Assembly (NCBI RefSeq): GCF_035609205.1
Contig: NZ_CP141184.1
Coordinates: forward strand, 4,595,001 to 4,659,000
Origin: Hymenobacter sp. GOD-10R
GTDB lineage: Bacteria; Bacteroidota; Bacteroidia; Cytophagales; Hymenobacteraceae
Length of the DNA: 64,000 nucleotides
Reading direction: 5' to 3'
In this document: positions 15,336-49,107 of the stretch, piece after piece
Layout of the letters: each line of letters starts with the position of its first letter
How positions within the stretch are numbered: the stretch's first letter is position 1
Notes under the pieces: model-generated
Database searches by the model: none
What the model saw: the letters and a program-made list of their open reading frames with translations, nothing else
Told to the model about the DNA's origin: nothing
Made by a program: the position numbers and the translations under genes

Positions 15336-18300
15336 ATGATGACAACCTCTACCCTTCCGCAGCGCCCTGCTGCTCTAGCTAGGCTTGTTGCACCGATCAA
15401 AGCTAGCCTACTGCTCCTCCTAACAGTTGGTAGCGTACAGGCGCAGGCGCCTCTAGTCACGAGCCTAACACCAACGCGCAATGCCCGTTCGGCGCCGCGC
15501 ACCACTAACGTCGCGGCCACCTTCAACCAAACGCTTAGCAACACGCCCGCCACGCAGCAAGCCCTTCGGGTATTTGGGCAGCAAGCCGGCAAGAAGGCTG
15601 GCACCGCAACAGTGAGTGGCAACACTCTCACCTTCGACCCAAGCACTAATTTCCAGCCAGGCGAAACGGTGTACGCCACCATTACGGGCGCGGCCCGGAG
15701 CAGCGGCGGCGTGGCTGCTGCGCCGCACGTTTTCCAATTTACCACGACTACCGCGGCGGCACCAGCCACCTTTGCGCCGGCCCGACTTGCGACCCTAGGT
15801 TTCTACCCCAATGAGGTAAAGTTCGGTGACCTGAACGGGGATGGCGCCTTGGATATCTTGGCAGCGAGTAGTAATTCAAATGTTGCCATCCGCCTCAATA
15901 ACGGCAACGGCGTTTTTGGGACCACGCAAACAGTGGCCGTAAGCGCCGAAGCGCGCGTGCTGGCCACAGCCGACATTGATGGCGACGGTGACCTAGATTT
16001 CCTAACCTGCAACAACGTCTCCGGCACCACTCCCGTGAGTGTGCGGCTCAACAATGGGGATGCCACCTTCTCGAGCGCGCAATCGGTACAACCAGGTGGG
16101 GCAGTCTTGAGCATGACCCTAGGTGACGTGGATGGCGACGGCGACCAGGATCTGCTGATTGGCAAGAATGCTACGGTGGCCGTGCGCTTCAACAATGGCA
16201 GCGGCCTCTTCAGCGGCGACCAGGAAGTATCCGTTGATGCTTTCTATACGGAGGCCGTAGCGCTGGGTGACGTGGATAGCGACGGCGACCTAGACCTACT
16301 CACGGCCAACGACAGCCGAGGCACCGTGAGCGTACGCCTCAACAATGGGCTAGGTATTTTCACCGGCGGCTCCGAGGTAACGGTAGGCGGGCAGTTGTTT
16401 GACGTGACCACCGGCGACGTTGACGCCGATGGCGACCTCGACATCGTAGCCGCTAGCCAGAGCCTTGGCAAAGTGAGCGTGCGGCTGAACAACGGCAACG
16501 GCACTTTCGCCGGCGGCCAAGACTTAGTGGTAGGACCTAACCCCTACACGGTGGAACTCGGCGACCTGGATGGTGACGGCGACCTGGACCTAGCCACCGG
16601 CCGCACAAGTGGCGGCGTGGGCGTGAGCCTGAACAATGGCAGCGGCACCTTCGCCCCTGCCCAGACGCTGACCCCTGTCTCGTATGCCCGCCCCCTGACG
16701 CTCGGCGACGCCGACAACGACGGCGACCTCGACATTCTGACGGGCAACGACAACAGCACCAGTTACGGCTTGAATCTATTCCTGAACCAGCCTGCTCCTA
16801 GCATCACCAGCGTGACGCCCAATACCACATCAGCTGGCGTAAGCGTGACCATAATTGGCAACAACTTGCTAGGCGCGAACGGCGTGACCTTCAGCGGGAC
16901 GGAAGCCCCCAGCTTCGTAGCCAATTCGAATACGCAGCTTACCGTTACTGTACCCAATGGCATTGCGTCGGGTCCGCTTGTGGTTACCTCCGTGCTAGGC
17001 AACAGCAACAGTGTGCCCTTTACCATTTCATCGATTTTGGGCGTGACGAGCGTCACGCCAGCGCGTAATTCCAACGCGGCGCCCCTCCGCGGGCCAGTGA
17101 CGGTGACCTTGCGCGTTCCCTTCAACAACAGCCCCGCGACCCTAGGTGCCCTAAAGGTTTTCAGCCAACAGGCGGGCGGCAAGAAGGCTGGCACAACCAG
17201 CGTAAATTCTACTGCGCTGAGCTTCACGCCTACCGTTCCGTTTAAAGCCGGCGAAACCATCTACGCCACGCTCACAGGACAAGCCGAATCAGGACCAGGG
17301 GCCGAAATTACGCCCCACGTGTTTCAATTTACCACGGCTACCAGCCCGAGTTCGGGCGTGTTCGGGGGCGGCTCAGAGGTTGCGGTAGGGGGCAACCCTT
17401 TCGCATCAAGCCGTGGCTTAGCGACCGGCGATGTGGACGGCGACGGCGACCTCGACCTGGTGACTTCGAATGGTCTTACCAATACAGTGAGCGTACGGCT
17501 TAATAACGGCGCGGGTGCCTTCAGCGGCACCCAGGAAGTAGCCGTAGGCAACATACCGCTCAACGTGGCCTTAGGCGACCTCGATAACGACGGTGACTTG
17601 GATATGCTGGCGGTGAACCAAGGTACGGCGGCCAGCAACTTCGCCGGCTCGGTGAGCATACGGCTGAATAACGGCTCGGGTATCTTCTCGGGTAGCCAGG
17701 AAGTGCTGGTTGGCCAGGCGCCTTATGATGTGACCCTAGGGGATGTAGATGGGGATGGCGACCTAGATTTTGTATGTCCCAAAGCAAACGCCGCAGCGAG
17801 CGTGCGACTGAACGACGGCAGCAGCACCTTCAGCAGCGGCTCGGAAGTGGCACTCGGTTCTCTGTCTTATACAGCTGCGCTGGCAGACATAGACAATGAT
17901 GGCGACTTGGATTTGCTCGCCCCCAGCTACGGTGGTTCTACCCTGAGTGTCCGTTTAAACAATGGCAATGGCATCTTCACCGGTACCCAGATCGTATCGG
18001 CGGGGGGTAGTCCTAATGGCTTTGCCGTGGGCGACATCGACGGAGATGGAGATGTGGACCTATTGGTTACCAGCTTCCTTGAATTCAGGGGCGTTGACAT
18101 TCGCTTTAACGATGGGGCGGGCAAGTTCAGTAGTACCCAACGGCTGCCCTTGCCGAATGGGGCAACCAGCTTAGCGTTGAGCGACGTGGACGGTGATGGT
18201 GATCTGGATTTGCTAGCGTCAAACTATCGGACGCTCATGAGTGCGAGCATCTGTTTGAACAATGGGCTAGGTAGTTTCAGCATCAGCCAGCAAGTGGCGC

Positions 18301-21300
18301 TGGCCGCTGGTGCACAGGGGCTCGCGGTTGGTGATTTAGACGGTGATGGTGACACTGATTTCTTAGCGCGCTCCGACATCGGCAGCAACGTGAGCGTGCG
18401 CCTAAACGGCAACACAACGCTGCTGCCCACGGCCTTCTCCCCTACCCGCAACGCCCGCTCAGCCCCGCGCAACACTGATGTGTCCGTCACCTTCAACCAA
18501 GCCCTCACCAACAACGCAGCCACGCAGGGTGCGCTGAAAGTGTTTGGGCAGCAAAGCGGCTTGAAAGCCAGCGCCGTAGCAGTAAGCGGTAATACGCTCA
18601 CGCTGAACCCAACTACCGACTTTAAGCCCGGCGAAAAAGTGTTTGCAACGCTTACCACCGCCGCGCAAAGCAGCAGCGGCAGCCTGACCAACCCGCAAGT
18701 GTACGAGTTCACGGCGGCTACCGCCCCTAGCCCGGGCACCTTCCTAGGCGGCTCTGACATTGCCGGTGCCGGCAACATCGCCGTGGGCGACCTGGACGGC
18801 GACGGTGACCTGGACTACGTGACCTTGGCGGGCGGCGTGCGCTACAACGACGGCACCGGCCGCTACGTCACCGGGCAGCTGTCCGGCACCCTTGGCGCGG
18901 CGCGCAACGTGGCCCTGGCCGACCTCGACGGCGACGGCGACCTGGATATGTTACTGAGTGCCAACAACGGCCGGGGCTTTGTGAACGTGCGCTTCAACAA
19001 TGGCACCGGCGTTTTCTCGGGTAACCAAGTGGTGCAGGTGGGCGCGGAGCCGTACGGCCTGGCTGCGGCCGACGTGGATGGCGACGGCGACCTGGACCTG
19101 CTTACCGCCAACTATAGCAGCGCCAGCGTGAGCGTGCGCCTGAACGATGGCGCGGGCACTTTCGGCGGCGGCTCGGAAGTTAGCGTGGGCACCCAGCCCA
19201 ACAGTCTGGCCATAGGCGACATCGACAGCGACGGCGACCTAGATTTTATCGTGCAGAACTCCAACACTACCACCGTCAGCATCCGTCGCAACGACGGCCG
19301 GGGCAACTTCAGCGGCACGGAAACCCTCTCCACCGGCTTCAACCCCAGCAGCATGGTGCTGGGCGATGTGGATGGCGACGGCGACCTGGACCTGCTTACC
19401 GCCAACTTCAACAACTACGAGGGCAACCGCACCGTGAACGGCGACGTGCGCGTGAGCAAGAACGACGGCTTCGGCACGTTCAGCAACGCACAGAAGGTAA
19501 TGCTGGGCGGCAGCCCCACCGATGTGACCTTGGGCGACGTGGACGGCGATGGCGACCTAGACCTCGTCACATCCAACGGCGGCAACGGCAGCGGCACCAC
19601 CGCCAGCATTCGCCTGAACGACGGCACCGGCACCTTCTCGGGTACTCAGGAGGTGACCGTAAGCACTGGCGCTAACAACGTGGCGCTAGCCGACGTGGAC
19701 AATGATGGTGACCTAGATTTGCTCACCAGCGGCATCAGCAGCACCAGCGTGCGCCTGAACACTGCGCCGCTAGCTATTACCGCCGTATCGCCTGGGCGCA
19801 ACGCCCCGGCCGCGCCGCGCACGACTCCCGTGGCTGTTACCTTCAACCAACCGCTCAGCACCGACCCCGCCGCCCAGAACGCTCTGCGCGTATTCAGCGC
19901 CCAGGCGGGAGGCCGCAAGACGGGCACGGCCACCGTTAGTGGCAACACGCTCCGCTTCGCTCCGAACGGCACTTTTAAGCCCGGCGAAACAATCTTCGCC
20001 ACCGCGACTACAAGCGTGCGCGGCGCCAATAACCAGATACTGCCGAAACCCCAGGTTTTTCAGTTTACAGCTGCCACAGCACCTAGCAACGTCAACTTTA
20101 GCAGCGGCTCCGACCCGAGCGTGGGCGCCACTCCGCAGTCCGTCGCTACCGGCGACGTGGATGGCGACGGCGACCTCGACTTGCTCACCACCACCAACAA
20201 CGCTATTGGCTACGTGAGAGTGCGCCTAAACAATGGCGCGGGCGCCTTCAGCGGCGGCTCGGAAGTGTACGTGGGGAACAATCCGTATCAGCTGGTGCTC
20301 GGCGACGTGGATGGCGACGGCGACCTGGACCTAGCGACGGCGCTTTCGGGCGCCGGCGGCGCTGGTGGTGCCGTGCGCGTTATCAGGAACAAGGGCGCGG
20401 GGATCTTCAGCAACAATGACATTCAAACGGTGTCCGTCGGCCCGAATGCGCACGCCGTTGCCTTCGGCGATGTGGATGGGGACGGCGACCTGGATTTGCT
20501 CGTGGCCAACTATACGGTGGTGGGTAACACAACCAACAGCACCGTAAGCGTGCGCCTCAACGACGGCACGGGCGAATTCAATAGCGGCTCGGAAGTAAAT
20601 GTGGGCACGCGCCCGGTAAGCCTAGCCCTCGGCGATGTGGATAACGACGGCGACCTCGACTTCCTTACGGCCAACTCGAACAGCACTACCATCAGCCTAC
20701 GCCTAAATGATGGCACGGGCACGTTCAGTGGCACTACCGAAATCAATACGGCTTACAACCCGGAAGTAGTTACCCTCGGCGACGTCGATAACGATGGCGA
20801 CCTCGACCTAATCGCGGCGCACGTGGTGAGCAGGGTGGTAGTCGTACGCCTCAACGATGGAGCAGGAAACTTCTCCGGTACCGTGCCGTTGGTTTTGGGG
20901 CTAAGTGCCCCGTACGGTCTAGCCCTAGGCGACGCTGACGGCGACGGCGACCTAGATATGTTCGTGGCAAACAGCGGCACCAACACCGTGAGCGTGCGCC
21001 TCAACAATGGCGCGGGCACCTTCGGCGGCAGCCTGCAAGTACCCGTGGGCAGCAACCCCACCAGCGTCGTTCTCGGCGACCTGGACGGCAACGGCACCCT
21101 CGACTTTATCACTGCGAACAAAGACGCCAACACCGCCAGCGTGCGGCTGAATTCCCCGGTTGCCGCCAAAGTGCTGGCCGCGGCGCCGGCGAAGCTGCTT
21201 GAGCAAGTGGAACTGTACCCCAACCCGGCCCACGAGCTGGTGCAGCTAGTGTTGCCAACCGAACTCGTGCAACAAGCCGTGCAGCTTAGCCTGGTGAATG

Positions 21301-21446
21301 CGCTCGGCCAAGTGGTGCTGGAGCAACAGCTTACCGCCCAGCAAACAGCGTTGGAGCTGAAGCTAGGGCGGCTACCGCAAGGCGTTTACAGCGTGCAGCT
21401 CCGCACAGCTGCGGGTCTCGTAACCAAGCGGTTAGTAATCGAGTAA
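15336..21446 (+). CDS. P1: T9SS-secreted protein with four Ig + seven-bladed FG-GAP propeller modules
   Basis: The 2036-residue product has a signal peptide ending QAQA near residue 37. SbsA-like Ig domains (bacterial Ig-like, PTRNARSAP...TFNQ...GETV) start near 40, 569, 1029 and 1481. Each is followed by seven FG-GAP/VCBS repeats with a calcium loop (GDVDGDGDLDLL type), 28 in all. An IPT/TIG domain lies after propeller 1 (about 489-568). The T9SS sorting domain starts near 1956 (VELYPNPAH) and ends KRLVIE. FG-GAP repeats form integrin-alpha-like propellers that bind calcium and ligands, so a surface adhesin or lectin role is likely but not shown. Two ATG codons (15336 and 15339) are possible starts. 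Confidence 0.9.
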   Translation: MMTTSTLPQRPAALARLVAPIKASLLLLLTVGSVQAQAPLVTSLTPTRNARSAPRTTNVAATFNQTLSNTPATQQALRVFGQQAGKKAGTATVSGNTLTFDPSTNFQPGETVYATITGAARSSGGVAAAPHVFQFTTTTAAAPATFAPARLATLGFYPNEVKFGDLNGDGALDILAASSNSNVAIRLNNGNGVFGTTQTVAVSAEARVLATADIDGDGDLDFLTCNNVSGTTPVSVRLNNGDATFSSAQSVQPGGAVLSMTLGDVDGDGDQDLLIGKNATVAVRFNNGSGLFSGDQEVSVDAFYTEAVALGDVDSDGDLDLLTANDSRGTVSVRLNNGLGIFTGGSEVTVGGQLFDVTTGDVDADGDLDIVAASQSLGKVSVRLNNGNGTFAGGQDLVVGPNPYTVELGDLDGDGDLDLATGRTSGGVGVSLNNGSGTFAPAQTLTPVSYARPLTLGDADNDGDLDILTGNDNSTSYGLNLFLNQPAPSITSVTPNTTSAGVSVTIIGNNLLGANGVTFSGTEAPSFVANSNTQLTVTVPNGIASGPLVVTSVLGNSNSVPFTISSILGVTSVTPARNSNAAPLRGPVTVTLRVPFNNSPATLGALKVFSQQAGGKKAGTTSVNSTALSFTPTVPFKAGETIYATLTGQAESGPGAEITPHVFQFTTATSPSSGVFGGGSEVAVGGNPFASSRGLATGDVDGDGDLDLVTSNGLTNTVSVRLNNGAGAFSGTQEVAVGNIPLNVALGDLDNDGDLDMLAVNQGTAASNFAGSVSIRLNNGSGIFSGSQEVLVGQAPYDVTLGDVDGDGDLDFVCPKANAAASVRLNDGSSTFSSGSEVALGSLSYTAALADIDNDGDLDLLAPSYGGSTLSVRLNNGNGIFTGTQIVSAGGSPNGFAVGDIDGDGDVDLLVTSFLEFRGVDIRFNDGAGKFSSTQRLPLPNGATSLALSDVDGDGDLDLLASNYRTLMSASICLNNGLGSFSISQQVALAAGAQGLAVGDLDGDGDTDFLARSDIGSNVSVRLNGNTTLLPTAFSPTRNARSAPRNTDVSVTFNQALTNNAATQGALKVFGQQSGLKASAVAVSGNTLTLNPTTDFKPGEKVFATLTTAAQSSSGSLTNPQVYEFTAATAPSPGTFLGGSDIAGAGNIAVGDLDGDGDLDYVTLAGGVRYNDGTGRYVTGQLSGTLGAARNVALADLDGDGDLDMLLSANNGRGFVNVRFNNGTGVFSGNQVVQVGAEPYGLAAADVDGDGDLDLLTANYSSASVSVRLNDGAGTFGGGSEVSVGTQPNSLAIGDIDSDGDLDFIVQNSNTTTVSIRRNDGRGNFSGTETLSTGFNPSSMVLGDVDGDGDLDLLTANFNNYEGNRTVNGDVRVSKNDGFGTFSNAQKVMLGGSPTDVTLGDVDGDGDLDLVTSNGGNGSGTTASIRLNDGTGTFSGTQEVTVSTGANNVALADVDNDGDLDLLTSGISSTSVRLNTAPLAITAVSPGRNAPAAPRTTPVAVTFNQPLSTDPAAQNALRVFSAQAGGRKTGTATVSGNTLRFAPNGTFKPGETIFATATTSVRGANNQILPKPQVFQFTAATAPSNVNFSSGSDPSVGATPQSVATGDVDGDGDLDLLTTTNNAIGYVRVRLNNGAGAFSGGSEVYVGNNPYQLVLGDVDGDGDLDLATALSGAGGAGGAVRVIRNKGAGIFSNNDIQTVSVGPNAHAVAFGDVDGDGDLDLLVANYTVVGNTTNSTVSVRLNDGTGEFNSGSEVNVGTRPVSLALGDVDNDGDLDFLTANSNSTTISLRLNDGTGTFSGTTEINTAYNPEVVTLGDVDNDGDLDLIAAHVVSRVVVVRLNDGAGNFSGTVPLVLGLSAPYGLALGDADGDGDLDMFVANSGTNTVSVRLNNGAGTFGGSLQVPVGSNPTSVVLGDLDGNGTLDFITANKDANTASVRLNSPVAAKVLAAAPAKLLEQVELYPNPAHELVQLVLPTELVQQAVQLSLVNALGQVVLEQQLTAQQTALELKLGRLPQGVYSVQLRTAAGLVTKRLVIE

Positions 21447-21585: not shown

Positions 21586-24500
21586 ATGATCACACTTCCT
21601 ACTCTTCCGCCTGGTTTACGACCTAGGCTCTTGCTACTGTTGCTCGCCAGCACGAGCACGGCCTACGCCCAAACGCCCACCGTCACGAGCTTGTCGCCGG
21701 TGCGTAATGCGCGCTCGGCGCCGCAAGCCACCAATGTATCCGTTGATTTCAGCCAAGCGCTGAGCAGCAATGCCGCTACCCTAGGTGCGCTAAAGGTATT
21801 CAGCCAGCAGACCGGCGGTAAGAAAGCCGGCACGGCGACGGTCAGCGGCAACACGCTCAGCTTCGACCCTAGCTCCAACTTCAAGGGAGGCGAGACCGTG
21901 TTTGCCACGGTAACCTCGGCAGCGCAGAGCAGCAGTGGCACGCCCGCCGCGCCGCAGGTTTTCCAGTTCACTGCGGCCACGACCCCGTCGCCCGCCACCT
22001 TCAGCCCTAGCACCCAGACAGTAGAGGGCTTTGCGCTGAATGCCTATAATTTCATACTGAGCGACCTCGATGGCAATGGTGCGCTGGATGTTTTGTGTCC
22101 CGTCGCAAACACGAACACTGGAAGTAGTGGGGCAGTAGGAATACGTTTTAATAACGGTGATGGTACCTTCGGCGGGTTTCGGACGGCGAGCGTTGCTATT
22201 GATCCTTCCAAAGTAGTAACGGGAGACCTCGACGGCGACGGCGACCTGGACCTGATTACGGCGGGTTCCATCTACCCCACCAGGACTTACCGCATCAGTG
22301 TCCGCTTCAACGATGGAGCTGGCTCCTTCAGCGGCACACAACAGTTTGTCGTTGGGGATAATACCACCGACCTCATCCTAGGTGACGTGGATGCCGACGG
22401 GGACCTGGACCTACTCACCTGCAACAGCGCGACGGTAAGTGTGCGGCTGAACAACGGCAGCGGCGGCTTCAGCGGCAACCAGGAAGTACCCATTAACGCA
22501 AGCGGCGCCAGTGCCATCGTGCTCGGCGACGTAGACAACGACGGTGACCTCGACTTCGCCACGGCCAACGGCAACACCGGCATCAGCATTCGCCTGAACA
22601 ACGGTAGTGGCAGCTTCGGCACCGGCCAGGATGTGCGCGTGGGCAGCCAGGTAACGGAGTTGGCCACCGGCGACGTAGATGCCGATGGCGACCTAGATAT
22701 TGTGACGGCGGGCACCAACGCGGCTGGCTCGGTAACCGTGCTGCTAAACACCGGCGCGGGTACCTTCGCGCCCGGCCAAAACCTAGCCCTGGGCGCCAGC
22801 TCCACCAAAGTGGCCCTAGGCGACCTCGACGGCGACAACGACCTCGATCTGATGTCCAGCGTGAATGATGGCGTGCGCGTGCGCCTCAACAATGGCAGCG
22901 GCACCTTCAGCGGCACGCAAGCCTTGCTGGCCGGCGCCAACGTGCGCACTGCCTTGCTGGGCGACCTCGACGGCGACGGCGACCTGGATATTCTGGCCGG
23001 TGCCAACAGCATCACCGGCTTAAGCGTCCTCCAGAATCAGCCAGCCCCGAGCACTACCAGCATTACGCCCGACGTCGCCACAACGCGTAATACCGTCACG
23101 ATAACCGGTAGCGACCTACTAGGTACTACCGGGGTGACCTTCAACGGCGTTGTGGCGCCCACCTACACCGTAAAATCGAACACGCAGCTGCTTGTGGCCG
23201 TGCCCGACGGTGCCACGACGGGCCCCGTTGTGGTGAACTCATTAGTGGGCAATAGCAATGGCCTTCCGTTCACCGTAACACCGATTGCAGTTGTGACCAG
23301 CGTAACGCCTACGCGCAACACGTTTCTGGCTCCTAGGCGTACGCCGATTGCAGCTACGTTCAATCAGCCCCTAGGCACCGGGTTCGACGCTTCGCAGGCC
23401 ATTCGGGTGTTCAGCCAAGAATCGGGGCGCAAAGCAGGCCAAGCAACGGTGAGCGGCAGTACGCTCAGCTTTGTACCCACCACCGATTTTAAAGCCGGTG
23501 AAACCCTGTACGCCAGCGTGACGGCAACGGCACAGAGTAGCGCAGGTTCGGCCGTCAAGCCGCACGTGTTTCAGTTTACCACGGCTACTACCCCGAGCTC
23601 GGCCACCTTTGCTACCGGCGCCAACCTAGCCTTGTACACGCATGTTGATAATGTGGTACCAGGTGACGTGGATGGGGATGGTGACACTGATCTGCTGGTG
23701 ACCACCAATTCTTCCGAAGGCCTGCCCAAAGTAACCACCTATCTAAATAATGGCAGTGGCGCCTTCACGAGCGCTACGCAACTAACGCTACGCGGCAGCT
23801 ACATCTCCCTAGAAATGGGTGATATCGACGGCGACGGCGACCTGGACTTAGTAGTTCCGAACAATGGTCTACTTAATGGGCAGCTCGACACGTACTTGAA
23901 TAACGGCCAAGGCACTTTCACGCTGGTGGCGGGGTCGGCGGCAAACCTCATCTCTATCGGCCAGTTCAGTCTTCGGGATGCCGATGGCGATGGCGACCTA
24001 GACATCTTTACGACAGGCTATAGTGGGGTAGTGGTGTACTTCAATAACGGTAGCGGCACGTTCAGCAATCCTCGCTCAACACCCGTAGGAGTTGGGGCAA
24101 AGTACCTCGCCATTGGGGACTTAGATAACGATGGTGACCTTGATGTTATCTCCGCTCCCTACAGCTACCTGAATACGGCCAGCGTGCGCTTCAACGATGG
24201 CCTCGGCACCTTCACCGGCACCCAAGAACTCCCCATCAGCATTCTGCCCAACGACGCAGACCTAGGTGATATCGACGGCGACGGGGACCTCGACTTTGTG
24301 GTGGCCAGCAATAGCACTAAGGCCGTTGACATCCGCCTGAACAACGGGGCTGGTGTATTCAGCGGCACTGGGTCAGTACCAGTGGGCAAGGGCGGCCAAC
24401 CGGCCCGAGTATACCTCCGCGACATTGATGGTGACGGCGACCTCGACATCTTGACCAGCAGCACCGACAATTCCGTGAGCATCCGCCTCAACGACGGCAA

Positions 24501-27725: not shown

Positions 27726-27759
27726 AATTGGCCGGAGTCGAAAATGGCTCCGGCCAATT
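27726..27759. terminator. Hairpin terminator after P2
   Basis: AATTGGCCGGAG (27726-27737) pairs perfectly with CTCCGGCCAATT (27748-27759) around a 10-nt loop, followed by CTTTATT. The open frame of P3 can be extended leftward to 27744, inside this hairpin, which argues against that upstream start. Confidence 0.85.
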
Positions 27760-27848
27760 CTTTATTGACTGAGTACCAAACTCATCTATTTGCGTATAAC
27801 TCACGCTTTGATTTTTCGTCCTTCCTATTTCTTATTCTTTCCCCTCGT

Positions 27849-37452: not shown

Positions 37453-37479
37453 TTTCTGAGCACAAAGCTAGCTTCCACG

Positions 37480-37512
37480 AAAAAGAGCCGACTGCATTAG
37501 TCGGCTCTTTTT
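37480..37512. terminator. Hairpin terminator after P4
   Basis: AAAAAGAGCCGACT (37480-37493) pairs perfectly with AGTCGGCTCTTTTT (37499-37512) around a 5-nt loop, with a T-run on the plus strand. Confidence 0.9.
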
Positions 37513-37807
37513 GTTTGGTTTTCAACGGGAACCAACGTCACTTGTTCGCCTCGTCATAGCCTTGTGCCTCGCCCCTAGTCCAAGGCTAGGTTTTCTCAGC
37601 CCCCGGCCCACGCTTGCCAGTGACGTCAGCCGCCACGAAGTAGAAATCAAAAATTATACTTTTCAATTATTACATAACTATAAAATGCTAATATATAGCA
37701 TTTTATTTCAAATAATCCTATGTTTGCCAGTGCCTCAAACGGGATGAGGTGTGCAGTTGAAGAGAGGCATTGTCTACTTCCTTTCCACCCTTATTCCTGT
37801 TCTGTTT
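37513..37807 (+). promoter_or_regulatory. Leader of P5 with hairpin and promoter-like element
   Basis: This 295-nt stretch has no supported gene. It contains an AT-rich perfect hairpin (TAAAATGCTA at 37681-37690 with 37696-37705, 5-nt loop) and, 13 nt later, TATGTTTG at 37719-37726, an exact TAnnTTTG match. The -33 element is weak (TTTTA or TTTCA). Transcription would begin near 37733, upstream of both candidate starts of P5. Confidence 0.4.
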
Positions 37808-40800: not shown

Positions 40801-42277
40801 CGATCCGAGCACGGACTTCAAGCCCGGCGAGACAGTGTCTGCCACCCTCACTACGGCTGCGCAAAGCAGCAGCGGCGCTAGCTTAGCCAAGCCGCAAGTG
40901 TTCCAGTTTACCGCCGCCGCCAGCGCCAGCAGCGGTGCCTTCGGCAGTGGCTCCGACCCACTGGTTGGCGAAAACCCGTACGGCGTGGCTAGTGGAGACG
41001 TGGATGGCGACGGCGACCTCGACCTGCTCACGGCCAACATCAGCAGCAGCACCGTGAGCGTGCGCCTCAACAATGGTTTGGGCAGCTTTAGCGGCACCCA
41101 GGAAGTCAGCACCGGGCGCGGCCCCACGCAAGTCGTGCTCAGCGACGTAGACGGCGACGGCGACCTGGACTTCGTGACCGCCAACAGCCGCTCCATCTTC
41201 CCCAGCACCGTGAGCGTGCGCCTCAACAATGGCTCGGGCACTTTCTCCGGCGGCCAAGACGTCCCCGTGGGGTACACGCCCCACGCCGTAGCTCTGGGCG
41301 ACATTGATGGCGACGGCGACCTCGACCTGCTCGCCCCTAACTACACGGCCGGCAACAGCACGACGAGCAGCACCGTGAGCGTGCGCCTGAATGATGGCCT
41401 AGGGTCCTTCTCCGGCACCCAGGAAGTGAGTATCGGCACGCGCCCCTTGAGCATCGCCCTAGGTGATGTGGACAATGACGGCGACCTGGACTTTGTGACG
41501 GCTAACTCCAACACGCTCACGGCTAGTGTGCGCTTAAATGATGGCACCGGTTCCTTCTCCGGCAGCACCGAGGTGCCTGTAGAGTTCAACCCCGAATCCA
41601 TCGTCTTGGGCGACATCGATCAGGACGGCGACCTAGATCTGGTGGTAGCCAACCAGGCCCTCAACACGGTGAACGTGCGCCTGAACAATGGCCTAGGCAG
41701 TTTCTCGGGTACTCAGCAGCTCGCCGTCGGCGCTACGCCGCACGGGGTGGTGCTCAGCGACGTAGATGGCGACGGCGACCTGGACCTAGCTACCGCTAAC
41801 ACCGGCAGCAACACCGTGAGCGTGCGCCTGAACACTGGCACGGGCACCTTCAGCGGCTCGCAGGAAGTGAGCGTTGGGGCGGGCACCTTCAGCCTAGCCT
41901 TGGCCGATGTGGACGGGAACGGCACCCTCGACCTACTCACGGCTAATAGCGCCGGCAACACCGCCAGCGTACGGCTGAATGCCGCCGCGACGGCTCAGGT
42001 GAAAGCCCTGGCTACCGCCTCCGCCCATCTGGCCGAACAAGTAAGCCTCTATCCCAACCCAGCCCATGAGTCGGTGCACTTGAGCCTGCCCGCGGAGCTG
42101 ACGCAGTACCCTATCCAAGTCAGTGTGCTCAACAACCTAGGTCAGGTGGTGCTCACGCAGAAGCTAGCACCTAGGTCACCGAGGGAAGTACAACTGGCGA
42201 ACTTACCAACTGGTATGTACAGTGTACAGCTAGTTACCAACGAAGGACTTATCACTAAGCGCCTTCTGATTGAATAG
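37808..42277 (+). CDS. P5: T9SS-secreted protein with three Ig + seven-bladed FG-GAP propeller modules
   Basis: Start at the ATG 37808 is preferred (1489 residues); it gives a paralogue-like N-terminus with a signal peptide ending MVHAQA. A GTG at 37751 would add 19 hydrophobic residues. Ig domains start near residues 42, 493 and 937, each with seven FG-GAP repeats (21 in all). There is no IPT domain. The sorting domain starts near 1411 (VSLYPNPAH). The last module closely matches module 4 of P1 and P2, including the third-blade insertion GNSTTSSTV, so P5 looks like a four-module gene that lost one module and the IPT, or an intermediate in the build-up. Confidence 0.88.
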   Translation: MLLSSIPLPHLAARRLTARFPHLLGAGLMLLLGQAEMVHAQAPTITSLAPARNAFAASRTTTVTASFDQPLSNTSATQQALQVLSQTSGRRKVGTTTVSGNTLTFDPITDFLAGEKVVATVTSAVQSSSGQALAKPQTYQFTTATAPSSGTFRKGAELPEVSGATQTADVDGDGDLDLLTLTGSAVQVSLNNGSATFSSGQLVSLAVSTGTPTQFAIGDLDGDGDADFAVVNSGAFSTIAVFLNNGSGAFTAGQVLGNTAGGLANNLNTIALADLNADGDLDIVTANSPAGRIGSVHLFLNAGNATFTRDAAVGSGVNNSFALGDIDNDGDVDIITSNFAFFTNSPLVQVFLNDGAGVFSYGQQITGASGAGLLDFDGDGDLDLQTSYEGKNVLLNEGGTFNKTAGITAPTVVAAGDVDGDGDQDLLSSQSGNDSLLVLLNNGQGQYAQSPTAGKLPRYSALADLDQDGDLDVYTFAGPVSVWLNQPLPSSLVVTALSPPRNAVAAPRPSNVAVTFDQPLSNNAATLGALKIFSQQAGGKKAGIATVIGNTLTFDPSTDFKPGEKVFATITAAAQSSSGASLAKPQVFRFTTATSPSAGTFGSSGDIPLGSTDFRLTVIDIDNDGDLDLLKPGSSDGIGGLSVRRNNGDGTFSAPQQIPISDAFATIVFGDLDSDGDLDFVAGSTPYLNNGAGTFSAGSDFGAPSFADPSLYDMDGDGDLDLLSTGGNGIFVRLNDGTGTFNSTTTFNTTVRRITGYTAGDIDNDGDIDVVFGIERAGSGIALNNGDATFSLGAMGITSLYLEVYKAALEDVDKDGDLDLLHASAGPVEILRNDGAGNFSPSSIVDGGNAFIIALATGDVDGDGDLDLLIESSTVRGVYIRLNNGDGTFGGSGTVSFAVPTSSLELADIDSDGDLDLLGSTTTGVSVYLNQNTAALAVTALSPTRNAVAAPRPTNVAVTFNQALSTGAATQGALKVFSQQAGGKKTGTTTVSGNTLSFDPSTDFKPGETVSATLTTAAQSSSGASLAKPQVFQFTAAASASSGAFGSGSDPLVGENPYGVASGDVDGDGDLDLLTANISSSTVSVRLNNGLGSFSGTQEVSTGRGPTQVVLSDVDGDGDLDFVTANSRSIFPSTVSVRLNNGSGTFSGGQDVPVGYTPHAVALGDIDGDGDLDLLAPNYTAGNSTTSSTVSVRLNDGLGSFSGTQEVSIGTRPLSIALGDVDNDGDLDFVTANSNTLTASVRLNDGTGSFSGSTEVPVEFNPESIVLGDIDQDGDLDLVVANQALNTVNVRLNNGLGSFSGTQQLAVGATPHGVVLSDVDGDGDLDLATANTGSNTVSVRLNTGTGTFSGSQEVSVGAGTFSLALADVDGNGTLDLLTANSAGNTASVRLNAAATAQVKALATASAHLAEQVSLYPNPAHESVHLSLPAELTQYPIQVSVLNNLGQVVLTQKLAPRSPREVQLANLPTGMYSVQLVTNEGLITKRLLIE

Positions 42278-42311
42278 CTGAGCTGCTCTTGCTTTCCTGC
42301 TTCTACTTCTA

Positions 42312-42343
42312 ATCAGAGCCAACCCTTCGGGGTTGGCTCTGAT
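42312..42343. terminator. Hairpin terminator after P5 with TTCG tetraloop
   Basis: ATCAGAGCCAACCC (42312-42325) pairs perfectly with GGGTTGGCTCTGAT (42330-42343); the loop is the very stable TTCG (UUCG in RNA). The following T content is modest. Confidence 0.85.
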
Positions 42344-42572
42344 ATTTATGTCACTTTCGAAAATCAGCATAACCACTGAATGTGTGCTTTTAGCAGAGCT
42401 AGGGCAAGGCAATAATGTAACGCTTTTTAGTAGTTAGCTTATATAATGTTTGTGGTATTAAACAAAGATTTACTGTTTACAATCAGATCCATTGTAAGTT
42501 TACTGTCTACCTGCTTTTCCGCGTATGAATCGGCGGTTTGGTATTGCTCATGCCCTCTGCTTCCCCTCTCGT
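42344..42572 (+). promoter_or_regulatory. AT-rich leader of P6
   Basis: About 230 nt, AT-rich at 42400-42500, without a supported gene. TAATGTTTG near 42446 resembles the -7 element but has one extra base. Likely holds the P6 promoter. Confidence 0.3.
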
Positions 42573-45500
42573 ATGACGCTATTCTCTACTATTGCTGCTC
42601 GCTTGTCACTCCCACAAGTGGAAATTAGCCTTCTGCATAAGCTAGGCACAGGTGCTTTGCTATTGCTAGCTGGTGGTGCTCATGCTCAAGCGCTTACTAT
42701 AACCAGCCTTTCGCCGGCGCGCAACGCACGTTCGGCGGCGCGCACCACGAATGTAGCGGCTAGCTTCAGCCAAGCGCTTACTACGGGCAGTTCTACTCAG
42801 CAAACCTTGAAAGTCTTCAGCCAGCAGGCTGATGGCAAGAAAACGGGCACGGCTAGCATCAGCGGCAACACACTCACCTTCGATCCTACTACCGATTTCA
42901 ACCCGGGTGAAACGGTGCTGGCGACCCTCATGGCCAATGCCCAAAGCACTAGCGGCACGACAGCGACGCCCCACGTTTTTCAGTTCACCACCGCCACGAC
43001 GCCAGCACCAGGCACCTTCAACGGCGGCTCGGAAGTGCGGCTGCCTACTCTCAACCATTCGCGGCTAGCCGTGGGCGACGTCGATGGCGACGGCGACCTC
43101 GACTTTGTGACCACGAACACCAGCAACAGCAGCGTGAGCGTGCGCCTGAACAACGGCGCGGCCTCCTTCAGCGGTACCCAAGATGTGGCCGTGGGCAGTT
43201 CACCCCTAGCTATTGTTTTGGGCGACGTAGACGGCGACGGCGACCTGGACCTGCTCACCACCAGCCTCTCGGCTAATACCGTGAGCGTGCGTCTTAATAA
43301 CGGCGCGGGTACGTTCGGTGGAGGCCAGGAGATAGGCATCGGGACCGTACCGCAAGCGCTGACGCTAGGTGACCTCGACGGCGACGGCGACCTTGACCTA
43401 GCTGTTGCGGCCACGGGGGACAATGTCGTTTCTATCCGGCTGAACAATGGCACGGGCACCTTCAGCGGTAGCACCGAGGTTGCGGTTGGCAATCAGCCTT
43501 CTAGCCTAGCGCTGGCCGACCTGGACACCGATGGTGACCTCGACTTACTTGCCCTCAACTACGACGACAACTCCACCGTGAGTGTGCGGTTGAATACAGG
43601 CACCGGTTCCTTCAACGGCACGCAGGAGGTCGCCGTGGGCCCAACCGCACGGGACTTAGCCGTGGGCGACGTGGATGGCGACGGCGACCTAGATCTGCTC
43701 GCCATCAACAGTACACCCAACAGTACCGTGAGTGTGCGCTTGAACAACGGCGCTGGCACGTTTGGCGGCACGCAGTCGGTGGCCGTCGGGTCTAATGCGG
43801 AAACTGTTGTGCTCGGCGACGTGGACGGCGACGGCGACCTAGATCTGCTGGCTACGCATCAAGCATTCGCCGATGCGACGGGTTTCCAGGGCAGCAACGG
43901 CGTGAGCGTACGGTTGAACAATGGCAGCGGCGCCTTCAGCGGCACCCAAGATGTCCCCCTGATTCAACCCATTGGCTACTTCAACAGCCCCTTAGACCTA
44001 GTGCTCGGCGATGTAGACGGCGACGGCGACCTCGACTTGCTCACCTCCAACAGCAACAATGCCGTGAGTGTGCGCCTCAACCAGAACCCCTTACCAGCTT
44101 TTGTGAGCACCACGCTACTGCCTGTACGCAATACCTTGGCAGCAGCCCGCACCACCCCAGTACAGCTCAAGCTTAACCGCGCTTTGAGTACTGATTTGCC
44201 TACGCAAAGTGCGCTGAAGGTCTTCAGTGCGCAGTCGGGTGGGCAGAAAGCCGGTGCAACCGTTGTGAACGGCAACACGCTCACCTTCACCCCTTCGGTG
44301 GCCTTCAAGCCCGGCGAGACGGTTGTTGCGAGCCTCACAGGACTGGCGCTCGACCCAGCAGGCAACGCCATTAAGCCAGAAGTCTTTCAATTTACCACAG
44401 CCGTAGCGCGCAGCAGTGGGCAGTTCAGCAGCACCCCTGATGTTGCTGTGGGTGCGGCGCCGGCCGGCATCACGCTCGGCGACGTAAACGGCGACGGCCG
44501 CCTCGATTTGCTCAGCGCCAACAACGTCAGTAACACCATTAGTGTGCGCCTCAATACGGGTCCGGGCACGTTCACGAGCAGCCAGGAAGTAGCTGTTGGT
44601 CCCGGTAACTTACCGGAGCAAGTGGCCCTGGGCGACCTCGACAGCGACGGCGACCTCGACATGGTAATTGCCACGGCCGGCTCGCCCAATATCAATGGCA
44701 CCGTGAGCGTACGATTTAACAATGGACAAGGCGTTTTCAGTGGCACGGCGGCCTACTTTGTAAGCTATGCGCCGCGCCGGATTGTGCTCGGCGATATTGA
44801 TGGCGACGGTGACCTAGATTTTGCCACCGCCAACGGCACCGTGGGCACGGTAAACGTGAAGCTCAACGACGGCAAAGGCGTTTTCATCGACTCGCAGCGC
44901 CTGAGCTTCAACTCGTCTACGGCTGACCTAGCCTTCGGCGACATCGACAGCGACGGCGACCTAGATATGCTCGTCACGACGCCCATTGCACAGGCAGTAA
45001 GCATCTTACGCAATGATGGCTTTGGTATGTTTAGCGCCAGTGGCACGGTTGCAGTTCAGAACCCCGGCAGTGTCGTACTAGGTGACGTGAACGGTGATGG
45101 TGCGCTAGATTTGCTCACGGGTACGACCACCGCCGTGCGCGTGCACCTAAACAATGGCAGCGGCATGTTCACCAGCAGCCAGGATGTTAATGCGGGCGGG
45201 GCCTTCTACTCCATTGCCGCAGGCGACGTGGACGGCGATGGTGACCTCGACTTGGTGGCCTCCAATTACGACTCCAATGTCATCAGCCTTCGCCTCAACA
45301 ACGGAACTGGCACCTTCACGGGTACCACAACCATCGCAGTTGGAAGCTCGCCCTATGGCGTCGCCCTCGGCGACTTAGATGGCGATGGTACCCTCGACCT
45401 AGCTACGGCCAACCGCAACAGTAACTCGGCGAGCGTGCGCCTCAATAGCCAAGTGCTAGCAACGGTGCCTGCCCAATTGGCCGAGCAAGTTGCCCTTTAT

Positions 45501-45725
45501 CCAAATCCAGCCCGCGAGGCAGTGCAGCTGCGTTTACCCGCCGAACTGACCCGCCACAGCGTACAGGTGCGTGTGCTCAACACCCTAGGTCAAGTGGTAT
45601 TAGAGCGGAACCTAGCTGGGCAAGCCACGCAAGAGGTGCTATTGCCTCAGCTAGTCACTGGCGTCTACAATGTGCAGCTTGGCACCAACCAAGGGGTCGT
45701 AAATAAGCGTCTGCTAATCAAGTAA
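42573..45725 (+). CDS. P6: T9SS-secreted protein with two Ig + seven-bladed FG-GAP propeller modules
   Basis: From the ATG at 42573 the product has 1050 residues; the frame is open to 42525, but the later start puts the signal peptide (ending GGAHAQ near residue 39) in the usual place. Ig domains lie near residues 42 and 510, each with a seven-repeat propeller, and the sorting domain begins near 970 (VALYPNPAR). No IPT domain. Propeller 1 is unusually regular: five of seven loops read GDVDGDGDLD or differ by one residue. Propeller 2 has two loops with N for D (GDVNGDGRLDLL, GDVNGDGALDLL). Ligand unknown. Confidence 0.9.
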   Translation: MTLFSTIAARLSLPQVEISLLHKLGTGALLLLAGGAHAQALTITSLSPARNARSAARTTNVAASFSQALTTGSSTQQTLKVFSQQADGKKTGTASISGNTLTFDPTTDFNPGETVLATLMANAQSTSGTTATPHVFQFTTATTPAPGTFNGGSEVRLPTLNHSRLAVGDVDGDGDLDFVTTNTSNSSVSVRLNNGAASFSGTQDVAVGSSPLAIVLGDVDGDGDLDLLTTSLSANTVSVRLNNGAGTFGGGQEIGIGTVPQALTLGDLDGDGDLDLAVAATGDNVVSIRLNNGTGTFSGSTEVAVGNQPSSLALADLDTDGDLDLLALNYDDNSTVSVRLNTGTGSFNGTQEVAVGPTARDLAVGDVDGDGDLDLLAINSTPNSTVSVRLNNGAGTFGGTQSVAVGSNAETVVLGDVDGDGDLDLLATHQAFADATGFQGSNGVSVRLNNGSGAFSGTQDVPLIQPIGYFNSPLDLVLGDVDGDGDLDLLTSNSNNAVSVRLNQNPLPAFVSTTLLPVRNTLAAARTTPVQLKLNRALSTDLPTQSALKVFSAQSGGQKAGATVVNGNTLTFTPSVAFKPGETVVASLTGLALDPAGNAIKPEVFQFTTAVARSSGQFSSTPDVAVGAAPAGITLGDVNGDGRLDLLSANNVSNTISVRLNTGPGTFTSSQEVAVGPGNLPEQVALGDLDSDGDLDMVIATAGSPNINGTVSVRFNNGQGVFSGTAAYFVSYAPRRIVLGDIDGDGDLDFATANGTVGTVNVKLNDGKGVFIDSQRLSFNSSTADLAFGDIDSDGDLDMLVTTPIAQAVSILRNDGFGMFSASGTVAVQNPGSVVLGDVNGDGALDLLTGTTTAVRVHLNNGSGMFTSSQDVNAGGAFYSIAAGDVDGDGDLDLVASNYDSNVISLRLNNGTGTFTGTTTIAVGSSPYGVALGDLDGDGTLDLATANRNSNSASVRLNSQVLATVPAQLAEQVALYPNPAREAVQLRLPAELTRHSVQVRVLNTLGQVVLERNLAGQATQEVLLPQLVTGVYNVQLGTNQGVVNKRLLIK

Positions 45726-45752
45726 CTCTTTGTCTTACAGCTACTCTTTTAC

Positions 45753-45778
45753 AAAGCCGGTCCCGCAGGACCGGCTTT
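45753..45778 (+). terminator. Hairpin terminator after P6
   Basis: AAAGCCGGTCC (45753-45763) pairs perfectly with GGACCGGCTTT (45768-45778) around a CGCA loop, followed by two more T. It falls inside the leftward extension of the P7 frame, arguing for the later P7 start. Confidence 0.88.
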
Positions 45779-45984
45779 TTGCGTTCGTGCTGTTGATTCT
45801 GTTCTCACGTTCGAGAACTTCCTTTGGCATGACATCCAAATGCTCTTTGTTAAGTAAATATGACTTTAGTAACAATATTTATCCTTTATCCGGTTTATAC
45901 GTACTTTACTGTCGAACAACCGCTTGTGCGCTTGTAAGTCCTGTTCTGTCACACAACCATCTCCTTACCTATTTCAATCTCTAC

Positions 45985-48900
45985 ATGCCTTTATTTCCTA
46001 TAATTTATCCCAGCCCGGGCCTAGCTCGACTTGGCGGTACGCTCTCGTGCGCGCTGCTGCTGGCTATGACTGCTGCTCATGCCCAAGGCCCAACGGTAAC
46101 AGGCCTAGCTCCTGTACGCAACGCCCGCTCGGCCCCGCGCGCAACGAACGTGGCCGCCACCTTCAGCCAAGCCTTGAACAATAGCGCTAGCACCCAACAG
46201 GCGCTGAAGGTGTTCAGCCAGCAAGCCGGCGGTAAGAAAGCGGGTACGGCTACGGTAAGCGGCAACACTCTCACGTTTGACCCTAGCTCCGACTTTAAGG
46301 CTGGTGAAACGGTGTATGCCACCGTTACGTCAGCCGCTCAAAGCAGCACGGGCACCGTCGCCACGCCCCACGTTTTTCAGTTCACTACAGCCGTCAGCCC
46401 GAGTTCGGGTACCTTCAGCGGCGGTTCGGAAGTGACCGTAGGAAATGGTAACATTATAGTTAATGCCCTTCAAAAAGTAGGCGACATAGATGGGGATGGC
46501 GACCTAGATCTACTCGCTATCAATAGTGGAACTAACCTAGTAAGTGTGCGCCTGAACAATGGCGCTGGCATCTTCAGCGGCACGCAGGAAGTAGTTGTTA
46601 GCCCTAGCTCCTACAACCTGGAACTTGGGGACTTAGACGCCGACGGAGATTTAGACCTCGTATCTACTGGTTGGAATGCTTCTACCAATGTCTCCCTCAT
46701 TAGCATACGCCTTAATAACGCAGGCACCTTTTCTGCGGGGCAAGAATTTGACATTTCCCCTTACGTACGGGAGGTAACGCTAGGAGACATAGACAACGAC
46801 GGCGACCTCGACCTGGCAATCTCCAACAGCTCTGGTAGCGCTAGCGTTATTACAAGACTAAACAACGGCAACGCTACGTTCAGCGCTGGCTCATCAATAG
46901 CGCTAGGTTTTGCTCCTTATAGATCATTGCTCGCCGATGTGGACAACGATGGAGATTTGGACTTACTGGCTGCTAATTACCAAGACGACCAAATAGCCAT
47001 TCGGAAGAATAACGGCCAAGGCAGCTTTTCGGGTACGCAGGTACTAGTAGCCGGCGGCACCCCTGGCAATACCGTCGTGGGCGACATTGATGGCGACGGA
47101 GACCTCGACCTGCTCACCACGGGTGCTGGGTGGGACCCTGGCGTACACATAGGTGTGAACGATGGCACCGGTACCTTCACGCGCGCACCAAATGTTGTAC
47201 TGGGCAATACACCCGCTAACCTCGCTTTGCACGACGTGGATGGCGACGGCGACCTCGACTTAATCGCTTCAATTTATAACACCCAGGCGTTGTTTATTCG
47301 CCTGAACAATGGCTCAGGTACATTTTCGGGTAGCAGTTATTTAACGCTTGATTATCTGCCATCAGGATACCTTCTCCATGATGTAGATGGCGACGGCGAC
47401 CTCGACATGCTGATGCGCAACAACAATAGCGTGCGTGTATGGCTCAACCAAGCCGCTGCTTTCACGGCAGCACCGCTGGCACCCGCTCGCAATGCCCGTT
47501 CGGCCCCGCGCAACACGGATGTAACCGTGACTTTCAACCAAACCCCGAGTAATACCCCGGCCACGCAGCAGGCGCTGCGCGTGTTCAGCCAACAAGCCGG
47601 CGGCAAGAAAGCGGGTACGGCGACAGTAAGCGGCAACACCCTAGCCTTCAAGCCTAGCACGAACTTCAAGGCAGGTGAAACCGTCTTTGCTACCGTCACG
47701 ACGGCGGCACAGAGTAGCACGGGTCAAAGTCTGACACGAAACCAGGTCTCTCAGTTTACCACAGCCACGAGCCCAAGCGCCGGCTTATTCACGGCGGCCA
47801 GTTTGGTATCGGTAGGCACTAACCCTGGCACCGTTGCCTTCGGCGACGTGGATGGCGACGGCGACCTCGACCTAGCTACGTCCAATAATAACAATACGGG
47901 TTCGGTGAGCATCCGCCTGAATAATGGCAATGCCACGTTCACTGGTGGCTCAGAAGTAGCCGTAGGCATCTTGCCGCGCCAAGTGGTATTCGGCGACGTG
48001 GATGGCGACGGCGACCTGGACTTGCTCACCGTCAACGTAGGCTATACCATCAACTACACGGCTAGCACCGTGAGCGTACGCCTGAACAATGGTAACGGTA
48101 CCTTCGGCGCTGGCTCAGAAGTTACGGTAGGCCCCCAGTTCGGGGCGGGCACAGGCAAGGCCATCTTCTTAGGCGACATTGATGGCGATAGTGACCTCGA
48201 CTTTGTGGCAACGTCGAACGTCGGCGGCACAATAGCCGTGTGCCGGAACAATGGTAACGGCACGTTCGTCGCTGAGCGCATTATGGTTGGTAACGTAGCC
48301 GATAGTGCCGTACTGGGCGACGTGGACAACGACGGCGACCTCGATCTGCTGGTGAGTGAGCCCCCCGGCGGACGAGTTTACGTTCTCCCTAACAATGGTG
48401 ATGGCAACTTTGGCAGCTACCGCCAAATTGTAGGTGTCGCTGGACCGGGCTTTTCCACTGCCACGGGTATCACCCTCGGCGACGTGGATGCCGACGGCGA
48501 CCTAGACCTAGTAGCCATTGGCAGCCAAACGGTTAGTATTCGAATTAATGAAGGCGGCACTTTCTACGACGGTCAACAAGTAGCCGTGAATGGACAACCT
48601 AGCACGGTAGCATTGGCTGATGTAGACGGCGACGGTGACCTCGATTTGCTGGCCACCACCGCTAACTCCACGGTAAGTGTGCGCCTGAACAATGGCAGCG
48701 GCACCTTCAGCGGCACGCAGAACGTGAGTGGCGGTGGCTACATCGCCTTAGGCGACCTAGATAACAACGGCACCGTGGACTTTGCCTTCCCGAATGCCGC
48801 TAATGCGGCCGTTGCTATCCGCCTGAATAATCAAGTACTAGCTACCGCGTCTCCGCAACTAGCGGAACAGGTATTGCTCTACCCTAACCCGGCCCACGCG

Positions 48901-49107
48901 TCCGTGTACCTGCGCCTGCCTACCGAACTGACGCGCCGCAGCGTGCAGTTTCAAGTGCTTAACACTTTAGGGCAAGTGGTAGCAGAGCAAAACGTAGCGG
49001 CACAACCTATTTCAGAAGTGCGCTTGCCCAAGCTGGCTGCCGGCATGTACAATGTGCGCCTAGCTACCAGCCTAGGCACGATCAACAAGCGGCTGCTGAT
49101 TGACTAG
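45985..49107 (+). CDS. P7: T9SS-secreted protein with two Ig + seven-bladed FG-GAP propeller modules
   Basis: The frame is open from 45730, but the ATG at 45985 (1040 residues) gives a normal signal peptide (core LSCALLLAMTAAHA) and leaves the P6 terminator outside the gene. Ig domains lie near residues 37 and 495, each followed by seven FG-GAP repeats, and the sorting domain begins near 958 (VLLYPNPAH, ending KRLLID). No IPT domain. Two loops start with HD rather than GD, and the last blade reads GDLDNNGTVDFA. It is the final member of the array and converges on the aldolase gene, with which it shares a terminator. Confidence 0.9.
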   Translation: MPLFPIIYPSPGLARLGGTLSCALLLAMTAAHAQGPTVTGLAPVRNARSAPRATNVAATFSQALNNSASTQQALKVFSQQAGGKKAGTATVSGNTLTFDPSSDFKAGETVYATVTSAAQSSTGTVATPHVFQFTTAVSPSSGTFSGGSEVTVGNGNIIVNALQKVGDIDGDGDLDLLAINSGTNLVSVRLNNGAGIFSGTQEVVVSPSSYNLELGDLDADGDLDLVSTGWNASTNVSLISIRLNNAGTFSAGQEFDISPYVREVTLGDIDNDGDLDLAISNSSGSASVITRLNNGNATFSAGSSIALGFAPYRSLLADVDNDGDLDLLAANYQDDQIAIRKNNGQGSFSGTQVLVAGGTPGNTVVGDIDGDGDLDLLTTGAGWDPGVHIGVNDGTGTFTRAPNVVLGNTPANLALHDVDGDGDLDLIASIYNTQALFIRLNNGSGTFSGSSYLTLDYLPSGYLLHDVDGDGDLDMLMRNNNSVRVWLNQAAAFTAAPLAPARNARSAPRNTDVTVTFNQTPSNTPATQQALRVFSQQAGGKKAGTATVSGNTLAFKPSTNFKAGETVFATVTTAAQSSTGQSLTRNQVSQFTTATSPSAGLFTAASLVSVGTNPGTVAFGDVDGDGDLDLATSNNNNTGSVSIRLNNGNATFTGGSEVAVGILPRQVVFGDVDGDGDLDLLTVNVGYTINYTASTVSVRLNNGNGTFGAGSEVTVGPQFGAGTGKAIFLGDIDGDSDLDFVATSNVGGTIAVCRNNGNGTFVAERIMVGNVADSAVLGDVDNDGDLDLLVSEPPGGRVYVLPNNGDGNFGSYRQIVGVAGPGFSTATGITLGDVDADGDLDLVAIGSQTVSIRINEGGTFYDGQQVAVNGQPSTVALADVDGDGDLDLLATTANSTVSVRLNNGSGTFSGTQNVSGGGYIALGDLDNNGTVDFAFPNAANAAVAIRLNNQVLATASPQLAEQVLLYPNPAHASVYLRLPTELTRRSVQFQVLNTLGQVVAEQNVAAQPISEVRLPKLAAGMYNVRLATSLGTINKRLLID

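Follow-up and report, generated by a model that had tools for sequence, protein, structure and literature searches.

In Hymenobacter sp. GOD-10R (GCF_035609205.1), the analysed stretch of contig NZ_CP141184.1 (positions 4,595,001-4,659,000 of the forward strand, 64,000 nt, hereafter the window) holds at 15336-49107 a bank of seven neighbouring open reading frames (ORFs), g1 to g7, where a preliminary description of this DNA had placed them, encoding 4, 4, 4, 2, 3, 2 and 2 beta-propellers, 21 in total. The comparisons reported here argue well for a mosaic history of this bank, in which the complete seven-bladed propeller (a ring) appears to be the unit of duplication, loss and replacement, the Big_5 spacers between rings and the gene order being better kept. 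Taken as a whole, the bank is probably best explained as a set of surface proteins of the type IX secretion system (T9SS) that carry seven-bladed rings on Big_5 spacers, with this mosaic history, and that form a recognition or adhesion repertoire. In the following, g1 to g7 are also called W_1 to W_7. The genome carries a second bank, whose genes are numbered B_1 to B_11; H. crusticola has two banks, Hc65 and Hc111, and H. cavernae likewise two, Cv4 and Cv2.

Apparent exchange of complete rings

Against its H. crusticola orthologue, g1 is 87% identical in ring 1, 45% in ring 2, 65% in ring 3 and 66% in ring 4, while the spacers flanking ring 2 stand at 91% and 90%, the next spacer at 69% and the tail at 85%; the corresponding values for H. 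cavernae are 48% in ring 1 and 81% in ring 2. The identity to H. crusticola shifts at the start of ring 2, ahead of residue 675 (TATSPSSG | VFGGG), and again at its end, ahead of residue 1023 (SNVSVR | LNGNT). By using trees of single segments, with five proteins in each, it was found that the supported (starred) branches join W_1 to H. crusticola (100/99) and W_3 to H. cavernae (100/99) in ring 1, W_1 to H. cavernae (100/99) and W_2 to H. crusticola (100/100) in ring 2, and W_2 to both relatives (100/98) in ring 3, and that no branch is starred for ring 4, spacers 3 and 4 or the tail. Approximately unbiased (AU) tests rejected the alternatives with p values of 1.04e-8 for g1 ring 1 and 4.57e-47 for g1 ring 2, and of 1.18e-4 and 0.0033 in the other tests, all somewhat too small because the clades were chosen after the trees had been seen. 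A second mosaic was found in H. crusticola, where Hc111_3 pairs with B_8 in ring 1 (100/100) and with B_7 in ring 2 (98/87), both branches being starred. Change points also lie near ring ends in B_11 ring 3 (-15 relative to its first calcium loop and +41 relative to its last), in W_7 ring 1 (+21) and, weakly, in B_10 ring 1 (+31, gain in log-likelihood 6.0).

The kinship of the spacers was compared with that of the rings they accompany. Within the two banks of GOD-10R (46 of 47 rings, one module having been dropped for its short N-terminus), the Big_5 spacer and its own ring showed a Mantel r of 0.015 (p 0.44), and the positive controls, two parts of the ring and two halves of the spacer, gave r values of 0.39 and 0.56 (p 0.0002 each). 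The two banks of H. crusticola (32/32 rings) gave 0.042 (p 0.39), with controls of 0.43 and 0.54 (p 0.0002 each). The nearest spacer and the nearest ring fell in the same module in 12 of 46 cases in GOD-10R and in 2 of 32 in H. crusticola. As spacer and ring kinship are decoupled, recombination between domains is needed, or homogenisation of either domain, which is also recombination; the two positive controls suggest that loss of signal at low identities plays a limited part.

The rings also appear to have been copied whole, since blade k finds its best match in blade k of a ring from another gene in 69 of 147 cases (21 expected) and within its own ring in only 7 of 147; on these matches, a recent building of rings by amplification of a single blade was rejected. 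Gain or loss by one ring is seen between the orthologues g5, with three, and Hc65_3, with two, and P0015, a database protein, has matches to the first and third rings of Hc111_1 and skips the second. In a tree of 79 rings the C-terminal ones cluster, with 3 label changes compared with 20.1 in shuffles.

Two explanations would do without exchange. Uneven selection, with fast and slow propellers in vertically inherited genes, is very unlikely: it cannot yield the supported conflicting trees of g1 propellers 1 and 2, and is refuted for g1. When the least and the most conserved ring of each protein pair were compared at fourfold-degenerate sites, p was under 0.05 in 5 of 17 pairs, and in W_1, W_7, B_8 and B_10 (p 3e-3, 4e-6, 1e-6 and 1e-4) the less conserved ring had the higher fourfold difference, a pattern that uneven selection would not easily produce; uneven selection is nevertheless favoured by B_11 propeller 3 and by the 12 pairs with no significant difference. 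The other explanation, that chimeric contigs of repeat-rich draft genomes mimic mosaics, draws on the facts that repeats are hard to assemble and that the H. crusticola genome is a draft, yet it is extremely improbable, as the window lies on a contig of 6.76 Mb, the conflict also involves H. cavernae, the rings concerned are 45-63% identical and thus too different to confuse an assembler, and kinship is decoupled within each of two genomes separately.

Several results weigh against ring exchange as a general account of the bank, among them the 12 non-significant pairs just mentioned and the draft state of the H. crusticola assembly. One of the five significant pairs, W_5, is invalid because its ring 1 has no counterpart, and across 44 rings the fourfold difference falls as identity rises (Spearman -0.73). 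No exchange or conflict was found for g4 across three species, nor any conflict by identity for W_6 with a third sequence, P0002. Ring 3 of B_11 is 57% identical where its four neighbours reach 79-95%, yet in the tree it still groups with its orthologue as sister (fourfold p 0.23), so fast amino-acid change fits it as well as replacement does; in W_7 the spacers share the high fourfold difference, so the exception may be the well-kept ring 2 and not ring 1. The change points are less exact in B_8 ring 2 (-55, wide interval) and in W_1 against H. cavernae ring 2 (-40). Finally, exact shared DNA words showed no enrichment in spacers, for which reason the idea of spacers as DNA recombination handles was rejected.

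Two further observations were made on these genes. The neighbouring genes B_7 and B_8 (L002 / L133) both match the single H. crusticola gene Hc111_3, in different rings. In g7, blades 3-5 of ring 2 (47761-48843) have an unusually low synonymous difference (pS) of 0.19-0.26 to H. crusticola, and ring 1 as a whole has 0.69; by these values ring 2 is perhaps a recent transfer.

A conserved place with divergent content

The position of the bank appears well conserved across relatives. The H. crusticola bank has the same genes on either side, a PA14/PKD protein on the left (the contig begins inside this gene) and the fructose-bisphosphate aldolase, GH36 and nitrite-reductase-like genes on the right. 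The H. cavernae bank retains three left neighbours, and its contig stops shortly beyond the bank on the other side. The best local alignments to H. crusticola gave identities of 68% for W_1/Hc65_1, 81% for W_4/Hc65_2, 75% for W_5/Hc65_3, 65% for W_6/Hc65_4 and 76% for W_7/Hc65_6, and the right-hand neighbours are 98% (aldolase), 93% (GH36) and 95% (nitrite-reductase-like) identical. The bank of H. crusticola offers no separate orthologue for W_2 or W_3 and has Hc65_5 instead. The fourfold-site difference is 0.20, 0.30 and 0.26 in the right neighbours, where codon bias may lower it, and 0.32-0.62 in most bank propellers (one at 0.20), the left PA14/PKD neighbour also showing 0.45.

Each of the seven proteins has a signal peptide, Big_5 spacers, FG-GAP_3 repeat blocks and a C-terminal Por_Secre_tail (Table 1). 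By Pfam, FG-GAP_3 (PF13517), Big_5 (PF13205, an SbsA-type immunoglobulin-like (Ig-like) domain) and Por_Secre_tail (PF18962) score above the cut-offs in 7/7 proteins, and g1 has in addition a TIG domain at residues 488-563, after propeller 1. In g3, g5, g6 and g7 internal codons are the likely starts, as judged by eye.

Table 1. Coordinates in the window of the propeller genes, their rings and the flanking features
Feature	Position	Strand	Description
g1	15336..21446	+	2036 aa; signal peptide, 4 x (Big_5 + seven-bladed propeller), T9SS sorting domain
g1 propeller 1	15744..16796	+	nearest to H. crusticola
g1 propeller 2	17358..18401	+	348 aa; apparent exchanged unit; bounded on both sides by change points relative to the H. 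crusticola orthologue
g1 propeller 3	18705..19781	+	
g1 propeller 4	20070..21167	+	C-terminal type
g2	21586..27666	+	2026 aa; 4 propellers: 21979-23052, 23581-24654, 24937-26013, 26305-27387
g3	27744..33938	+	4 propellers: 28266-29339, 29865-30932, 31218-32273, 32577-33650; likely start at an internal ATG near 27849 (by eye)
g4	34066..37452	+	1128 aa; 2 propellers: 34486-35589, 36100-37170; both concordant with orthologues
g5	37751..42277	+	3 propellers: 38228-39286, 39581-40618, 40913-41995; first absent from the H. crusticola orthologue
g6	42525..45725	+	1066 aa; 2 propellers: 42993-44099, 44397-45461; modelled by AlphaFold2
g7	45730..49107	+	2 propellers: 46399-47469, 47761-48843; likely start at an ATG near 45985
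Hairpin between g6 and g7	45750..45790	+	terminator-like
Left flank	8675..15016	+	PA14/PKD repeat protein with T9SS tail; relative beside the bank in H. crusticola and H. cavernae
Right flank	49202..50284	-	class II fructose-bisphosphate aldolase; 98% identical, adjoins the bank in H. crusticola

Beyond the propeller genes, residues ~1745-1920 of the left-flank protein resemble by eye what we take to be an SGNH/GDSL hydrolase, a domain missing from its Pfam list. Further right, the window contains at 55328-58840 a protein of 1170 aa in which a molybdopterin oxidoreductase is joined to Pyr_redox_2, Rubredoxin_C and Fer2_BFD domains, which may represent the fusion of a nitrate reductase with a portion of a NirB-like reductase; near it lie nitrite/sulfite reductase domains, a transporter of the major facilitator superfamily and an alginate-export-like protein.

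Seven blades as the family norm

A position-weight profile bore out the preliminary count of about 147 loops in 21 blocks of seven adjacent genes: exactly 7 calcium loops were found in 21/21 blocks, 147 in total, at thresholds of 8, 12 and 16 bits, although the count is not independent, as 139 loops of these very proteins had served to train the profile. A DxDxDG-type loop AB is present in 147/147 loops by this profile, with single positions deviating in some. A regular expression delimited 20 of the blocks and recovered 137 of their loops, missing 3; the remaining block, the first of g5, escaped delimitation, and 6 of its 7 loops were listed. All four missed loops are plain by eye. Once gaps with a missed loop are left out, successive loops mostly lie 47-55 residues apart, with outliers reaching down to 38 and up to 64. 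The Pfam profiles confirm the FG-GAP_3 and Big_5 domains, but the FG-GAP_3 matches (24, 21, 23, 10, 16, 13 and 13 for g1 to g7) cannot serve to recount blades because the model, of 61 positions, covers more than one blade.

That each block folds as a closed propeller, as had been proposed, stands by structure prediction and alignment for two propellers, which are closed, seven-bladed and built of four-stranded blades (the structural alignments listed omit propeller 1 of g6 and propeller 2 of g4); for the other 19 the seven-bladed ring is predicted from loop count and homology. The propeller fold found is that of the head of the integrin alpha subunit. A Foldseek search with the whole two-propeller model of g6 returned multi-propeller proteins at a root-mean-square deviation near 30 and was not used.

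The exact sevens, which the preliminary description had singled out, turned out to be ordinary and were dropped as a special property; its interpretation is supported in part. Seven is usual for PF13517/VCBS, and the bank has company in its own genome, where a second bank of 11 adjacent genes (C1:6447493-6490868), with orthologues in one of the H. crusticola banks, shows seven loops in 26/26 rings. The two banks of H. crusticola have seven in 32/32 rings and those of H. cavernae in 19/20, the exception reaching seven once the threshold was lowered, a recheck made for that protein alone. In the literature, the VCBS propellers of known structure are seven-bladed, and several propellers per protein together with Ig-like domains are described for the prokaryotic core group (Pereira and Lupas 2021, PMC8023676), as are three tandem seven-bladed propellers in Npun_R4253 of Nostoc punctiforme (Rigden et al. 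2011, PMC3123361). The regularity goes beyond chance, and it is one of shared ancestry and fold constraint rather than a special number. One protein of the second bank carries five rings in an open frame of 2850 aa.

In a wider count beyond the window in the same genome, seven loops were present in 54 of 60 blocks (ORFs with at least 4 loops, in 20 stretches including the second bank, from 150 scored of 733 first-look candidates; blocks of 1-2 loops dropped). Three of the six others are rings cut at stretch seams, one (L010) lacks a loop that the profile missed and that is seen by eye, and two lie in the divergent proteins L008 (4995-8369) and L015 (1171-4590), in which the profile finds too few loops to count blades. 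Among 79 loci of relatives, seven loops were counted in 73 of 152 blocks; with single gaps filled, 94 had seven, 15 fourteen and 43 another number, and these 43 need not be true exceptions because a detector trained on the window under-counts distant loops.

In a survey of 61 Hymenobacter genomes including this one, first-look FG-GAP_3 candidates, a loose measure and a proxy only, numbered 727 here against a median of 62 in the other 60, followed by 601 in H. crusticola and 252 in H. cavernae. The search for the array in other Hymenobacter genomes yielded banks in these two species; the scan of 59 relatives scored at most 13 candidates per genome and cannot show banks in other species.

Export and transcription

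The seven proteins are predicted to be exported by the T9SS to the outer surface, as earlier proposed from their signal peptides and sorting domains, and the export signals are well supported: a Sec-like signal peptide, cut before Gln, is present in 7/7 by pattern and by eye rather than by a predictor, and the sorting domain exceeds the TIGR04183 / PF18962 cut-off in 7/7. For the translocon SprA alone was searched, and SprA_N (PF14349) was found in the genome at E 4.4e-131. Sorting-domain matches number 140 among the 150 scored candidates, which indicates that T9SS export is widely used in this genome.

Strong hairpins, each of different sequence, were found before g1, in every gap and after g7 (8/8 folded stretches, 15050-15095 to 49108-49201), so a single operon is less likely, and a hairpin at each gene end would fit separate transcription. 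This is tempered by the choice of the folded stretches after hairpins had been seen in the alignment, and by the want of a good T run in some. A scan of 33900-46100 gave terminator-like sites (14, with 12.5 expected) and sigma-70-like sites (4, with 3.5 expected) at chance level.

Possible function and relation to known propellers

Recognition or adhesion, directed to other cells, matrix glycans or proteins, or surfaces, is judged the likeliest role of the set. Among 126 blades (all 147 except the final blade of every ring; strand order taken from the predicted model), variation peaks at 3.1-3.7 bits in the BC and DA' loops, which lie on the side of the ring away from the calcium loops, and three of the calcium aspartates vary by about 0 bits. 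Such variation would be expected of a recognition face, yet it is common in most propellers, and with values of 3.1-3.3 bits at individual positions in the CD loop and in strand D, it is not confined to one face.

It is unlikely, although it is the main rival to a recognition repertoire, that propellers and Ig spacers only form a structural matrix of stiff rods, a calcium-stiffened coat whose sequences drift under little constraint. Many parallel genes, the lack of a known ligand-site motif and a divergence of the bank beyond that of three flanking genes would suit a coat; the purifying pattern in 16 of 35 ring comparisons (nonsynonymous difference, pN, 0.03-0.10 at pS 0.24-0.56) speaks against it, and exchange at ring boundaries suggests a function of each ring's own. 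A lectin repertoire, each ring binding sugars between blades as in the Psathyrella velutina lectin (PVL), is rather improbable. In PVL and tachylectin a GW motif of loop DA' helps to form the sugar pocket (PMC8023676); in the bank GW occurs in 1/147 blades and Trp only 5 times in the 147 blade windows, and the fold matches are silent on function.

PVL (PDB 2bwm, 2bwr) is the best solved relative by sequence (E 7.9e-5) and likewise seven-bladed with calcium loops, but it is a single ring with the GW sugar pocket. With the VCBS/FG-GAP_3 core group the bank shares seven blades, a DxDxDG loop AB, a signal sequence and multiple propellers with Ig-like domains; unlike the bank, that group consists of hypothetical proteins in the available portions of PMC8023676, where neither a gene bank nor propeller exchange is described. 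Npun_R4253 resembles the bank in its tandem seven-bladed rings of largely calcium blades, but is one cyanobacterial protein, for which the available portions of PMC3123361 describe no T9SS bank or cross-species mosaic. The integrin alpha head differs, as the bank has a loop in every blade and integrin alphaV three calcium sites (PMC3123361), and integrin alpha also differs in export and other domains; no integrin leg domain was named in the Pfam lists at E 1e-3, with no search directed at such domains or at a beta subunit. In the literature within reach, which excludes most subscription journals, nothing was found joining Hymenobacter with FG-GAP, FG-GAP with T9SS, surface and Bacteroidetes together, or a VCBS propeller with domain shuffling. 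While seven-bladed multi-propeller proteins with Ig-like spacers are already known, whole-ring exchange in the evolution of a bank is less ordinary.

A mechanism can be outlined, in which the calcium loops would stiffen one face of the propeller and the opposite face, with its BC and DA' loops of variable length, would act as the recognition surface; the swap of a whole ring could then renew this surface with folding and export undisturbed, and a repertoire of separately transcribed genes would carry out recognition or adhesion. In its boldest form, which we put forward tentatively and with somewhat less than even confidence, the bank would be a system of propeller cassettes, in which Big_5 scaffold, sorting domain and locus stay fixed and complete rings serve as interchangeable recognition heads that pass from gene to neighbouring gene, from one of two distant banks to the other, and across species.

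VCBS/FG-GAP propellers are widespread and largely unstudied secreted domains of bacteria, and they belong to a prokaryotic group that is presumed ancestral to the integrin heads (PMC8023676). Natural swaps of whole rings within a fixed scaffold mark domain limits for expression, and pairs of swapped and unswapped rings represent a ready experiment on what these propellers recognise. If the cassette model is true, each lineage would have its own combination of surface specificities.

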